From: Natrinema longum | GTDB taxonomy: Archaea; Halobacteriota; Halobacteria; Halobacteriales; Natrialbaceae | DNA length: 64,000 nt | Assembly (NCBI RefSeq): GCF_017352095.1 | Contig: NZ_CP071463.1 | Location: 1,488,001 to 1,552,000, forward strand | Reading direction: 5' to 3' | Shown here: in pieces, positions 10,375 to 57,154 of the stretch | Numbering within the stretch: position 1 is the stretch's first letter | How the letters are laid out: every line of letters begins with the position of its first letter | Translations under genes and position numbers: made by a program | The notes under the pieces: generated by a model | Databases searched by the model: none | What the model was told of the DNA's origin: nothing | Seen by the model: the letters and a program-made list of their open reading frames with translations, nothing else

Positions 10375-10383
10375 GAAATGAAT

Positions 10384-10505
10384 GGGAGCGGCGAATCGGA
10401 TTTCCCAGAGGGTCGCCCACTCCAGTACTCACCGAAACGTAGGCGAGCTTATCTTCCGTGTTCGAGATGGGTACGGGAGGTCCCTCGCCACTGTGGCCGC
10501 TGTAA
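10384..10505 (-). rRNA. rrf: 5S ribosomal RNA, distal copy
   Basis: 122-nt gene recognised by comparison with the haloarchaeal 5S sequence: 5' TTACAGCGGCCACAG, central CCCGTACCCATCTCGAAC and GGAAGATAAGC, and 3' CTCTGGGAAATCCGATTCG. The terminal helix pairs AGCGGC with GCCGCT. It differs from the other 5S at about nine positions. One of these is a compensated A-U / G-C change in helix I, so both copies look foldable. It is the last gene of the operon. Ends are estimated to within a few nucleotides. Confidence 0.93.
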
Positions 10506-10574
10506 TGCCGATCGGCGGAATCGAACCGCCGTCAGACCACGATCGGTCGGTCGACCGTATTGGTCGATATGAGT

Positions 10575-10696
10575 GGTGGCGGCGAAACGGATTTCCCAGA
10601 GGGTCGCCCACTCCAGTACTCACCGTAACGCAGGCGAGCTTATCTTCCGTGTTCGGGATGGGTACGGGAGGTTCCTCGCCGCTGTGGCCGCCGTAA
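10575..10696 (-). rRNA. rrf: 5S ribosomal RNA, proximal copy
   Basis: 122-nt 5S gene directly downstream of 23S, with 5' TTACGGCGGCCACAG and 3' CTCTGGGAAATCCGTTTCG. Helix I pairs GGCGGC with GCCGCC. About 30 bp immediately upstream of each 5S gene are also alike (TGCCGATC, then GGAATCGAACC). The duplicated unit is therefore about 152 bp repeated with a 191-bp period, a tandem duplication of 5S plus its 5' flank. Confidence 0.95.
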
Positions 10697-23714: not shown

Positions 23715-24245
23715 CTAGGCGATCAGCTGTTCTTCGCCACGCTCGACGACGACGCGACACGGCGGCGAGATCTTGTTGTAGGAGCGCCGGAGCGCGTCCT
23801 TGGCGAACTCGGCGTCGTCGACGTCACACCAGATGGTGAAAATGCGCTCGCCGGCGTCGATGCGAGCGGCGGTGCCGACGATCTTCCCGAACGCCTGGCG
23901 CATCCCGTCGGAAACACGGTCTGCACCCGCGCCCGTCGCCTGCTTGTTCTCCCGGATGACGTGGTGGGGGAACTTGCGCAGGACCATCTTGTAGTTGTTC
24001 TCGCCGGCGTTTTTCAGCATGTGCCGATTGGCCGAGAGGCGGGAAGCCTCGAGCGAACCGTGACGGATCTGGACCTCTTCTTCCGTGATGAGGCTGATCT
24101 GGACGGGGTAGTCCTCGGCGTTGGCCTGGGCGTCGCCCATCTTGTGCTGTGCGATCTTCGAACCCGGGATGCCAGTAATGTACTCGCGGCGCGTGTAGGC
24201 CGGCTTACTGATCTCCCGGTACATGGAGGCAGGCTTGTCTGACAT
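23715..24245 (-). CDS. rpl10e: 50S ribosomal protein L10e (uL16)
   Basis: 176-residue ribosomal protein of the large subunit, the archaeal/eukaryotic counterpart of bacterial L16, located near the peptidyl transferase centre and P-site tRNA. The sequence [20 protein letters not shown], then [38 protein letters not shown] and [16 protein letters not shown] is typical and full length. It is monocistronic, flanked upstream by the HTH gene on the same strand (83 bp gap). Confidence 0.97.
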
Positions 24246-24593: not shown

Positions 24594-24755
24594 CTATGGT
24601 GTAGAGAATATAGATTGGCTAGTAGGTAATGATGTGGTTATATACCTATAAGGATGGAGGATCGGGCGCAGGACGGTGAGACGGGACTCCCGACGCTGTC
24701 GCAGTGATCGCCTCGCGTCTCGTTCGGGGTCGCTCCGGAACTCGTTCCCGCTATA

Positions 24756-24831
24756 GTAGCCACTGAAAGTCGATGCAGACTTGACCACATGACAGTGTCG
24801 CGGTCAGTGTGTCGATCGTTTCAGTGGCTAC
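24756..24831. repeat. 76-bp palindromic element, copy 1
   Basis: Perfect 13-bp terminal inverted repeats GTAGCCACTGAAA / TTTCAGTGGCTAC enclose an inner stem TGACC...GGTCA. A second copy of exactly the same length is at 57072-57147. Terminal and inner stems each differ between the copies by a compensated base-pair change (C-G to A-T; C-G to T-A). It lies in the 440-bp gap between the small HTH gene and thiE. No target-site duplication is obvious; both copies are preceded by TATA. Confidence 0.85.
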
Positions 24832-25009
24832 GGCAGTAGTACAGCAGTCGTCAACGAGTGGGTCCGATCGCATCCGGGGCCGAGCGAACTCGACAACTGT
24901 AATCACGCTCGAACGGACGATCCGTTTTTGCGCCGCTTCTCGGCTCCCCGTCCGGTCGTGTGGCGTCTCGATCGAAGCCACTTAGTGATATTACCGACTG
25001 GTGTCAGCC

Positions 25010-25675
25010 GTGAATCCCTCGAACTGGCGGGTCTACCTGGTCACGCAGGCGTCGCTGTCGGGCGACCGATCGACACTCGAGATCGTCGACGCGGCTATCG
25101 ACGGCGGTATCGACGCCGTCCAACTCCGCGAGAAGGAGACGAGCGCCCGATCGCGGTACGAACTCGGCCTCGAGTTACGCGAACGCACGGCGGCGGCGGG
25201 CGTCGACCTGATCGTCAACGATCGGATCGATCTCGCCCGGGCGATCGATGCCGACGGAGTCCACGTCGGACAGTCGGATCTTCCGGTGTCGGTCGTTCGT
25301 GACCTGCTCGGGCCGGACGCGATCGTCGGTTGTTCGGCGTCGACGGTCGCGGACGCTCGGGAGGCGGAAGCCCACGGCGCGGACTACCTCGGGGTCGGGG
25401 CCGTTTACGGAACGTCCTCGAAGGACGTCGACGAACCCAAAGACGGGATCGGTCCGGCTCGGGTCGCCGAGATCGCCGACGCGGTCTCGGTTCCGGTCCA
25501 TGGGATCGGCGGGATCACGGCCGACACCGCCGCACCCGTCGTTACAGCGGGCGCAGCCGGGGTGGCCGTAATCAGCGCGATCACGGCAGCGCCGGATCCA
25601 CGAACCGCGACGGAATCGCTTGCTGCCGCCGTCGAAACGCCAAAGGAAGTCGGTCGCGGAGGACGAAGAGAATGA
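25010..25675 (+). CDS. thiE: Thiamine-phosphate synthase
   Basis: 221-residue TIM-barrel enzyme joining hydroxymethylpyrimidine diphosphate and thiazole phosphate to thiamine phosphate. Family motifs: YLVTQ, GIDAVQLREKE (diphosphate contact), LIVNDRIDLA, DGVHVGQSDLP, VGCSAST, YLGVGAVYGTSSK and PVHGIGGIT. The GTG at 25010 (NPSNWRVYLVTQ) is preferred to the GTG at 25001 because a TATA-like TAGTGATATT (24983-24992) is about 25 nt upstream. Its stop overlaps the thiM start. Together they make the salvage and joining steps of thiamine synthesis. I see no THI-box riboswitch, as expected for Halobacteria. Confidence 0.95.
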   Translation: MNPSNWRVYLVTQASLSGDRSTLEIVDAAIDGGIDAVQLREKETSARSRYELGLELRERTAAAGVDLIVNDRIDLARAIDADGVHVGQSDLPVSVVRDLLGPDAIVGCSASTVADAREAEAHGADYLGVGAVYGTSSKDVDEPKDGIGPARVAEIADAVSVPVHGIGGITADTAAPVVTAGAAGVAVISAITAAPDPRTATESLAAAVETPKEVGRGGRRE

Positions 25676-39688: not shown

Positions 39689-40654
39689 ATGACCGGAAAC
39701 GAGAACGCGGTGCGGCGGGAGCTCTCGGGTGACGTACGCGTCGGTGGGGGCGAGACCGCACCCGTCGAACTCCGCGGTGCCGAAGACGTCTACGTGAGCG
39801 CCGAGAGCGTCTCGGGGCGGCTCACGATTCACGATCCGGAGTACGTCTTCACGGACGTCCCGGCCGGCGACGAACCCGCCGATTCCGAGGACGCGCGGAC
39901 GGTGTTGACCGGCGCTCTCGACGACGGCTACGTCGACGGCGTCGACGGCGACGTTCACGTCACCGGGGCCGAAGACGTCTTCGTCGAACACGGGGCGGCC
40001 GAGACGCTCTCGACGATCGGTGCCGAGCAAGTCTTTTACGACGACGCGGCCGCGCCCACTCGGTCGCCGGAGGACTACGAGGTCTCGGTCTCGGGGTGGC
40101 GACAGACTCGAGACGTCCGCGATCCCCGGGACGGCGTCTCCATCAGGGGCGCGAAGAACGAACTGACCGTGACCGACGCACGACACGATCTCACCCTCTA
40201 CGTCGCGGGCTGGGGGAACGAGGTCCGCATCGAGGGCCGGGCCGTCGACGTGACGGTCTACTTCGTCGGCCGCGACAACCGCGTCAGCGTCGGCCCGTAC
40301 GTCACGGCAACCACGGGTGCCGAGAGCGGCTACGACAACGACCTCGAGTCGGATCCGCTCCCGCCGGAGGCGCTCGTCGAGCAGACCGAGGCGGAGGCAT
40401 ACGAGGGGAACCTGTTCGGCCGTCACAAGGTGACCTACCAGGAACCGGCGTCGGGGAAAGAGTGGTGCCCCAACTGCGGCGAGAGCGCCGACGCCGTCAT
40501 CACGCGCAAGCAGCGCGACGCCTTCTTCCTGCTCGGGAAACCGATCCACACCTACGACAGCGGCGACGGGGCCTTCGAGTGCGAACACTGTACCGCCGTC
40601 GCCGTCGGCCCCGTCGAGCTCACGCCGGCGGAACGCAAACGAATTCTCGGGTGA
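39689..40654 (+). CDS. Beta-repeat protein with C-terminal zinc ribbon
   Basis: 321-residue acidic soluble protein. Residues about 10-215 contain repeated short strands with a GAEDVYV/GAEDVFV/GAEQVFY pattern and NELTVTDARHDLTLYVAGWG, then NEVRIEGRAVDVTVYFVGRD and NRVSVG. This resembles DUF3060-type beta-solenoids. The C-terminus (about 245-320) is a zinc ribbon: CPNC at about 258-261 and CEHC at about 295-298. It is divergent from the lipoprotein of the channel cluster and probably belongs to the same system; homology to known accessory proteins could not be tested. No signal peptide. Confidence 0.82.
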   Translation: MTGNENAVRRELSGDVRVGGGETAPVELRGAEDVYVSAESVSGRLTIHDPEYVFTDVPAGDEPADSEDARTVLTGALDDGYVDGVDGDVHVTGAEDVFVEHGAAETLSTIGAEQVFYDDAAAPTRSPEDYEVSVSGWRQTRDVRDPRDGVSIRGAKNELTVTDARHDLTLYVAGWGNEVRIEGRAVDVTVYFVGRDNRVSVGPYVTATTGAESGYDNDLESDPLPPEALVEQTEAEAYEGNLFGRHKVTYQEPASGKEWCPNCGESADAVITRKQRDAFFLLGKPIHTYDSGDGAFECEHCTAVAVGPVELTPAERKRILG

Positions 40655-40913
40655 CGTTTATCGCCGCTGAAGGGGAGTTTTACCGTGCGACGGCCACAGT
40701 TCGGGGTGGCTCCGTCTCGACCGTCGCCCGGTCGCGCCCCGGTTCCGGCGCGACTCGAGTCGGAATTCGTTCTCGTTCGCACACCGTCAGGACCCTTGGG
40801 GCAGCTCGACGGACTGGCGACGAGAGGAGCCACTGACACGATTTGACACACTGATCGCGCCGCTGTCGTGCGATCGGGTGTGCAGTGACTGCCGGAGGTA
40901 CCTATAGATAAAA

Positions 40914-40945: not shown

Positions 40946-42340
40946 ATGGTACTCGACGATCTCGGGAGTTCTCTGCGGGGCACCCTCGACAAGCTCCGCG
41001 GGAAGTCGCGACTCAGCGAAGAAGACATCGAGGAGATCGTCAAGGAGATCCAGCGATCGTTGCTCTCCGCCGACGTCGACGTCTCGCTCGTGATGGAGCT
41101 GTCGGACAGCATCAAAGAGCGGGCCCTCGAGGAGGAACCTCCCGCTGGCACCCCCGCGCGGGACTTCGTCCTCCGTATCGTCTACGAGGAACTGGTCGAT
41201 CTCATCGGCGACTCGACCGAGTTGCCCCTCGAGGAACAGACGATCCTGCTGGCGGGGCTGCAGGGATCCGGGAAGACGACGTCCGCCGCGAAGATGGCCT
41301 GGTGGTTCTCGACGAAAGGCCTGCGCCCGGCGGTCGTCCAGACGGACACCTTCCGACCCGGCGCGTACGATCAGGCCAAGGAGATGGCCGAGCGCGCGGA
41401 GGTCGACTTCTACGGGAATCCCGACAGCGAGGACCCCGTCGAAATCGCCCGGAAGGGACTCGAGGAGACGAGCGAGGCCGACGTTCACATCGTGGACACG
41501 GCCGGTCGCCACGCGCTGGAGGACGACCTGATCGACGAGATCGAGCAGATAGAGGGCGTCGTCGACCCCGACACGTCCCTGCTCGTCTTAGACGCCGCGA
41601 TCGGCCAGGGGGCGAAAGACCAGGCCCAGCAGTTCGACGAGTCGATCGGGATCGACGGCGTCGTCATCACGAAACTCGACGGGACGGCGAAGGGTGGCGG
41701 TGCGCTGACCGCCGTCGACCAGACCGACTCCTCGATCGCCTTCCTCGGGACCGGCGAGGAGGTCCAGGACGTCGAACGGTTCGAGCCCGACGGCTTCATC
41801 TCGCGGCTGCTCGGCATGGGCGATCTCAGTCAGCTCGCCGAACGCGTCGAGCGCGCGATGGAGCAGACGGAGATCGAGGAAGACGACTGGGACCCCGAGG
41901 ACATGCTCCAGGGGCAGTTCACCCTCAACGACATGCAAAAGCAGATGGAGGCGATGAACAACATGGGCCCCCTCGATCAGGTGATGGACATGATCCCCGG
42001 CCTCGGGGGCGGGATCAAGGATCAGCTCCCCGACGACGCGATGGACGTCACACAGGAGCGGATGCGTACGTTCTCGGTAATCATGGATTCGATGACCGAG
42101 GCCGAAAAGGAGTATCCGAAGGCCATCGGCGCGAGCCAGATCGAACGGATCGCCCGTGGCTCGGGAACCGAGGAAGAACAGGTCCGGCAGCTACTCCAGC
42201 AGTACAAGATGATGGAACGCACGATCAAGCAGTTCCAGGGAATGGGCTCCGAACAGGAGATGCAACGCATGATGCAACAGATGCAACAGGGCGGCGGTGG
42301 CGGTGGCGGCGGCATGGGCGGTATGGGGCCGTTCGGCTAA
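40946..42340 (+). CDS. srp54: Signal recognition particle protein SRP54
   Basis: 464-residue GTPase that binds 7S RNA and the signal sequence of nascent membrane proteins. N domain about 1-90. G domain: [15 protein letters not shown] (G1), [10 protein letters not shown] (G2), DTAGR (G3) and [10 protein letters not shown] (G4). The methionine-rich M domain is about 300-440 ([40 protein letters not shown]). It ends in a Met/Gln/Gly-rich tail with a run of eight glycines. The archaeal gene is usually monocistronic, as here. Confidence 0.97.
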
Positions 42341-56893: not shown

Positions 56894-57082
56894 ATGCCCA
56901 AGATCAGCGTCGAAATCCCACAGGAACTCCTCGACGACCTGGACGACCACGTCGGTGACGACGGCAAGTTCGTCAATCGCAGCGACGCCATCCGATCCTC
57001 GATCCGCAAAAACCTGGATATCTTAGACGAGATCGACAAACGCCACGACCGCCTCGGGGATCAGGAGTATAGTAGCAACTGA
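56894..57082 (+). CDS. Ribbon-helix-helix (CopG-type) regulator
   Basis: 62-residue RHH protein: strand KISVEIPQELLDDLDDHVGD, then helix 1/2 NRSDAIRSSIRKNLDILDEI. It should bind DNA as a dimer. The last codons and the stop (57074-57082) fall inside the 76-bp palindromic element, so the C-terminal SSN is encoded by the repeat. It may be an antitoxin-like or stand-alone regulator; no toxin gene is next to it. Confidence 0.88.
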   Translation: MPKISVEIPQELLDDLDDHVGDDGKFVNRSDAIRSSIRKNLDILDEIDKRHDRLGDQEYSSN

Positions 57083-57147
57083 AAGTCAGTGCACACCTGA
57101 TCGCACGACAGCGTTGCGATCAGTGTGTAAATCGTTTCAGTTGCTAC
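57072..57147. repeat. 76-bp palindromic element, copy 2
   Basis: GTAGCAACTGAAA / TTTCAGTTGCTAC terminal arms and the inner 8-bp stem TGATCGCA / TGCGATCA, same length as copy 1. It sits between the convergent RHH and RlmE genes and supplies the stop codon of the former. Confidence 0.87.
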
Positions 57148-57154
57148 GATAGTG

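Follow-up and report, generated by a model that had tools for sequence, protein, structure and literature searches.

Correia, ERIC and RUP are the closest described counterparts of the element reported here, which works like them in structure, target and behaviour (PMC2229807). Correia (NEMIS) elements of Neisseria are short, non-coding, palindromic MITEs with terminal repeats that start in TA and with a target duplication; they number more than 100 copies, and in-place inversion has been reported for them (PMC2229807, PMC10969869). ERIC (IRU) of the enterobacteria likewise has terminal inverted repeats, a target duplication and TA at its ends, lies between genes and can sit at gene ends; its transcripts carry long stem loops, and no partner transposase has been identified for it (PMC2229807, PMC10969869). 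RUP of Streptococcus pneumoniae is a 107-bp MITE found at TA targets in about 100 copies (PMC2229807). Among haloarchaea, Haloquadratum walsbyi harbors non-coding mobile repeats of similar length known as SMRs, MITEs and PATEs: the SMRs have inverted ends and no transposase is known for them, the PATEs are devoid of terminal inverted repeats and the MITEs have partner transposons (PMC3119063).

We analyzed a 64,000-bp stretch of the Natrinema longum genome, called here the window, in which the initial annotation had placed two 76-bp palindromes at 24756-24831 and 57072-57147. Both coordinates were verified in the sequence and the palindrome length is exact, but the element itself is slightly larger: the palindromes are the cores of a single 80-bp element, TAGTAGC[C/A]ACTGAAA...TTTCAGT[G/T]GCTACTA, with the family consensus CTATAGTAGC[C/A]ACTGAAAGTCAnTGCACACCTGA[T/C]CGCACGACRGCGTTGCG[A/G]TCAGTGTGTnAATCGTTTCAGT[T/G]GCTACTATAG. 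It is very probable that these hairpins are copies of a non-autonomous haloarchaeal DNA transposon (MITE). The copies and associated features found in the window were:

24754..24833, plus strand: copy 1, 80 bp, model match of 84.7 bits, palindromic core at 24756-24831; intergenic, between the divergent genes for uL16/L10e (23715-24245, minus strand) and thiE (25001-25675, plus strand)
24752..24753, no strand: left TA target-site duplicate of copy 1; its right partner, at 24834-24835, has decayed to CA
57070..57149, plus strand: copy 2, 80 bp, inverted in place in genome G061 and with an empty site in genome G010
57068..57069, no strand: left TA target-site duplicate of copy 2; the empty site in G010 reads GGAG-TA-GTGTTACTCC
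57150..57151, no strand: right TA target-site duplicate of copy 2, from the G010 empty site and flank comparison
40820..40908, minus strand: copy 3, decayed, absent from the initial annotation and found with covariance model R2 (69.1 bits, E 2.1e-15); intergenic, between a gene ending at 40654 and an SRP54-like gene at 40946, upstream of the latter
56894..57082, plus strand: ribbon-helix-helix gene (CopG/CdrS/NikR-like), 62 aa, whose last four codons (YSSN) and stop are supplied by copy 2

The 80-bp element is a near-complete palindrome: its ends are inverted over about 16 bp (TAGTAGC[C/A]ACTGAAA), its inner stem has 14 bp and its internal loop is short. Copies 1 and 2 aligned without gaps across the element, their conserved patches match the initial annotation, and the paired differences between their arms (GCC/GGC versus GCA/TGC, among others) are genuine. 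Relative to shuffled sequences, the hairpin energy gave z = -4.9 for copy 1 as DNA and z = -8.0 for copy 2 as RNA. The outer arms formed by the terminal inverted repeats were paired in 84% of cells, whereas slid controls, computed for the whole structure, reached at most 41%. The stop codon of the ribbon-helix-helix gene upstream of copy 2 (TGA, 57080-57082) was donated by the element; in relatives without the element this gene ends in ...GAGTAG or similar.

Comparison with related strains revealed filled and empty sites, as the initial annotation had suggested looking for. Copy 2 has an empty site in G010, where the flanks are 93-94% identical: GGAG-TA-GTGTTACTCC there corresponds to GGAG-TA-[80 bp]-TA-GTGTTACTCC in the window. 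The joined flanks of 30 copies from the same genome as the window were then searched in G061, which belongs to the same species, and in G010 and G027. About nine copies had contiguous empty flanks in G061; clean TA empty sites were found at loci L051, L056 and L067, and TG or GG replaced TA at L046, L049 and L052, so that some sites depart from the classic TA duplication. Both flanking dinucleotides were still TA in 18 of the 30 copies. A further candidate empty site, L065, was rejected, its copy being missing from G061 through a 108-bp deletion. The element inserts at a TA dinucleotide with a 2-bp TA duplication, and it was still active after two conspecific strains had diverged. The filled and empty sites with TA duplication place it among the non-autonomous, MITE-like elements of which Correia, ERIC and RUP are examples: it is short (<200 bp), non-coding and multicopy, and it has terminal inverted repeats.

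The earlier observation of palindromic copies was confirmed, and had been understated. A BLAST search of copy 1 against its own genome matched about 40 places, and covariance models (A2 and R2) built from the BLAST-found copies raised these to 68 places above 51 bits, on both strands, plus weaker ones below; the two palindromes first noticed are accompanied by dozens more, so that the refuting condition set in the initial annotation, a genome free of further copies, does not hold. Within the genus, the element was present in all 28 genomes searched (own included), with 2 to at least 72 copies each. Across the class, 27 of 65 genera and 78 of the 194 genomes sampled gave matches at E <= 1e-8, concentrated in its own family and in the families labelled f4 and f5. 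It was also found in 48 plasmid records, the named ones all being haloarchaeal (Natrinema, Haloterrigena, Natronorubrum, Natrialba, Haloarcula, Halomicrobium and Halostella), and no convincing copy was found in the phage records and viral contigs searched. Based on codon-usage gene predictions, 45 of 46 tested copies were intergenic, several of them at gene ends with an arm giving the stop codon. One locus (L238, G004:C14:63500-71500) holds five copies in about 5.6 kb; enclosed by them are several small genes and a fragment of an IS4/IS5-type transposase. Apparent tandem copies in G007 (L239, L240 and L241) were discarded as assembly artefacts: identical copies are joined there by a single N, where the assembly broke at the palindrome.

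The element differs from each of its counterparts. Correia elements are 107-155 bp long, have promoters and IHF sites and belong to another host domain; their sequence differs as far as known, the comparison being one of descriptions. ERIC is 127 bp long and bacterial, and an RNA effect has been shown for it in Yersinia. For RUP the partner IS630-Spn1, with matching ends, is known, whereas none was found for the haloarchaeal element. The Haloquadratum SMRs lack a target duplication and are inserted in other mobile elements, in contrast to the TA duplication and intergenic positions seen here. Membership in the PATE/REP group or among the Haloquadratum SMRs was rejected on their defining features, given the TA duplication, the lack of Y1 transposase and the intergenic positions. 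Papers searched for strings of the element sequence and for haloarchaeal MITE or REP sequences did not describe the family; this covers part of the literature, and ISfinder may list it. A single palindromic repeat family present in about 40% of the sampled class genomes is a haloarchaeal counterpart to Correia and ERIC.

The initial annotation had read the compensatory differences between copies 1 and 2 as selection for folding, such as in an RNA. A structured RNA under selection (or a 3' processing or terminator hairpin acting at the RNA level), with spread as a secondary matter, would agree with several observations. Between copies, 52 cells were changed on both sides and the covariation score was 0.177, above all 500 shuffles (mean 0.108); the fold is very stable, conservation across the copies extends to the unpaired patches GTC and ATCG, and several copies overlap gene ends or lie just past them and give the stop codon. 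The right folding test is nevertheless the one made on orthologous copies, because the copies within a genome are paralogues that go back to different source lineages. Over ten pairs of orthologues, 48 stem changes were one-sided and 2 compensated, with 1.2 expected under independence, these counts being small; stems diverged by 10.6% and loops by 11.5%, so that stems decay uncompensated and as fast as loops. Among 96 copies, with one constant G.T pair set aside, G.T mismatches (102) were about as common as A.C mismatches (81; p = 0.14), without the strand asymmetry of G.U-type mismatches and as in DNA. Moreover, of the 11 sites shared with the sister strain, 4 carry the element inverted there, and hence neither strand is preferred, and the Rfam matches in the window were rRNA and tRNA alone, with none for the element. 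The orthologue and mismatch results speak against both an RNA and a hairpin kept by host selection; on these tests the structured RNA was rejected, and we consider it highly improbable. The between-copy covariation is explained by symmetric termini among the source lineages: the arms would match through a transposase acting on symmetric ends, with source copies staying symmetric, and not through a host need for the hairpin. Paired changes among copies of a mobile palindrome are no proof of RNA structure, and the orthologous-copy version of the test fails here.

The third option of the initial annotation was a non-autonomous mobile element mobilized by a single-strand transposase. The filled and empty sites uphold its first part, the mobile element; the single-strand transposase is not supported, given the duplicated TA and a genome without Y1. 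A Y1 (IS200/IS605, RAYT) transposase would mobilize a REP/REPIN- or PATE-like element, palindromic, intergenic and of high copy number, as this one is. Elements of the IS200/IS605 type insert without target duplication, whereas TA is duplicated at the insertion sites described above, and the element has true terminal inverted repeats. Y1 transposase genes (PF01797) were absent from the own genome, and G061 has only one. In-place inversion is not expected of the Y1 mechanism and was counted against this reading. PATEs of such a kind are known in Haloquadratum (PMC3119063), and the arm contains a GTAG tetranucleotide like that of the GTAG-tagged REPs as outlined in PMC3733652. A Y1/REP origin was rejected on the TA duplication and the absence of Y1, and appears extremely improbable.

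IS630/Tc1-mariner elements are the best-known TA-duplicating family, and a MITE derived from one of them, as proposed for RUP in pneumococcus, would account for the TA duplication and for terminal repeats ending in TA; IS630 transposases were also found in 19 of 29 genomes of the genus. However, no IS630-type DDE_3 transposase was found in the own genome, despite the recent insertions there, and the number of element copies does not track that of IS630 transposases: G005, G007 and G009 have many copies and no IS630, whereas G023 has 56 IS630 matches and 8 element copies. The arm motif was absent at 29 of 30 IS630 loci of relatives, and at the remaining one (L188) a single arm lay several hundred bases from the gene. 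An IS630 parent was put aside on the lack of matching ends and the wrong phyletic pattern, and we regard this parentage as possible though unlikely.

We inspected the own genome for an autonomous element with arm patterns of up to 3 mismatches, and found none, the matches being the element itself or chance. A scan of 84,980 genomes for the arms (arms then A or T only) yielded 84-bp arm pairs or solo half copies (L282, L323 and L290), none of them beside a transposase. These searches recovered no partner IS whose ends match, and could miss partners that share few terminal bases. Transposition of the MITE would occur in trans, given that no autonomous counterpart with such ends turned up, and a cut-and-paste (DDE-type) transposase would act on the symmetric ends. 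This mobilizing transposase may have been lost from the genome or may share just a few terminal bases with the element. Two of the loci recovered in the scan, from Natronorubrum halalkaliphilum (L282 1987-5501) and Salinadaptatus halalkaliphilus (L323 4484-8000), share 3.5 kb at 98.6% identity that include an HNH-like ORF and a solo arm of the element, a likeness attributable to recent transfer or contamination.

The four copies inverted in place, among the 11 shared with G061, were copy 1, copy 2, L042 and L068; the same orientation was kept at L045, L050, L059, L062, L063, L064 and L070. The L068 copies have a derived base (TTTCGGTGG) in common after turning, and the TA site is the same in both strains, so that the inversion of one old copy is the simplest reading. 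In young inverted copies an independent new insertion into the TA already used is conceivable in principle, because all copies are highly identical. Frequent in-place inversion, at 4 of 11 shared sites, would fit an active site-specific switch with a dedicated recombinase in place of a passive mobile element, and Correia elements are reported to invert too (PMC10969869). Inversion alone would, however, leave the empty sites and the TA duplication unexplained, no recombinase was identified, and general recombination or replication acting through the hairpin offers a simpler route to inversion; such a switch is very unlikely. For the MITE, in-place inversion would result from strand exchange between the arms, by a cruciform, a replication template switch or recombination, with no need for a dedicated recombinase.

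Larger changes were also associated with the element. A pair of 80-bp copies, identical and equally oriented (G000:C1:2782926 and 2785073), brackets about 2.1 kb of DNA with a GC content of 40%, compared with 64% in the window, and the bracketed DNA contains three ORFs without family matches. The whole block (L231 2027-4253, about G000:C1:2782926-2785153, 2.2 kb) is absent from G061, which has a single TA there, and is also missing from G010 and G027. This reflects either movement of the pair as a composite transposon or recombination between a resident copy and a circle that carried a single copy. At another locus (L061/L230, G061:C1:1877600-1885700) a segment of about 7 kb is turned round in G061 relative to the own genome, with an element copy at either end. 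The element may carry cargo and rearrange the genome; it provides ready markers for strain divergence and accounts for some stop-codon changes, gains of gene cargo and inversions. A broader scheme, in which the symmetric ends allow TA-targeted spread, near-equilibrium flipping and carriage of foreign DNA together, via an unrecognized transposase family, and in which flips near genes could be heritable switches, is speculative and rather improbable. Elsewhere in the window, two 5S rRNA genes (10383-10504 and 10574-10695) lie in tandem behind one 16S-tRNA-23S operon.
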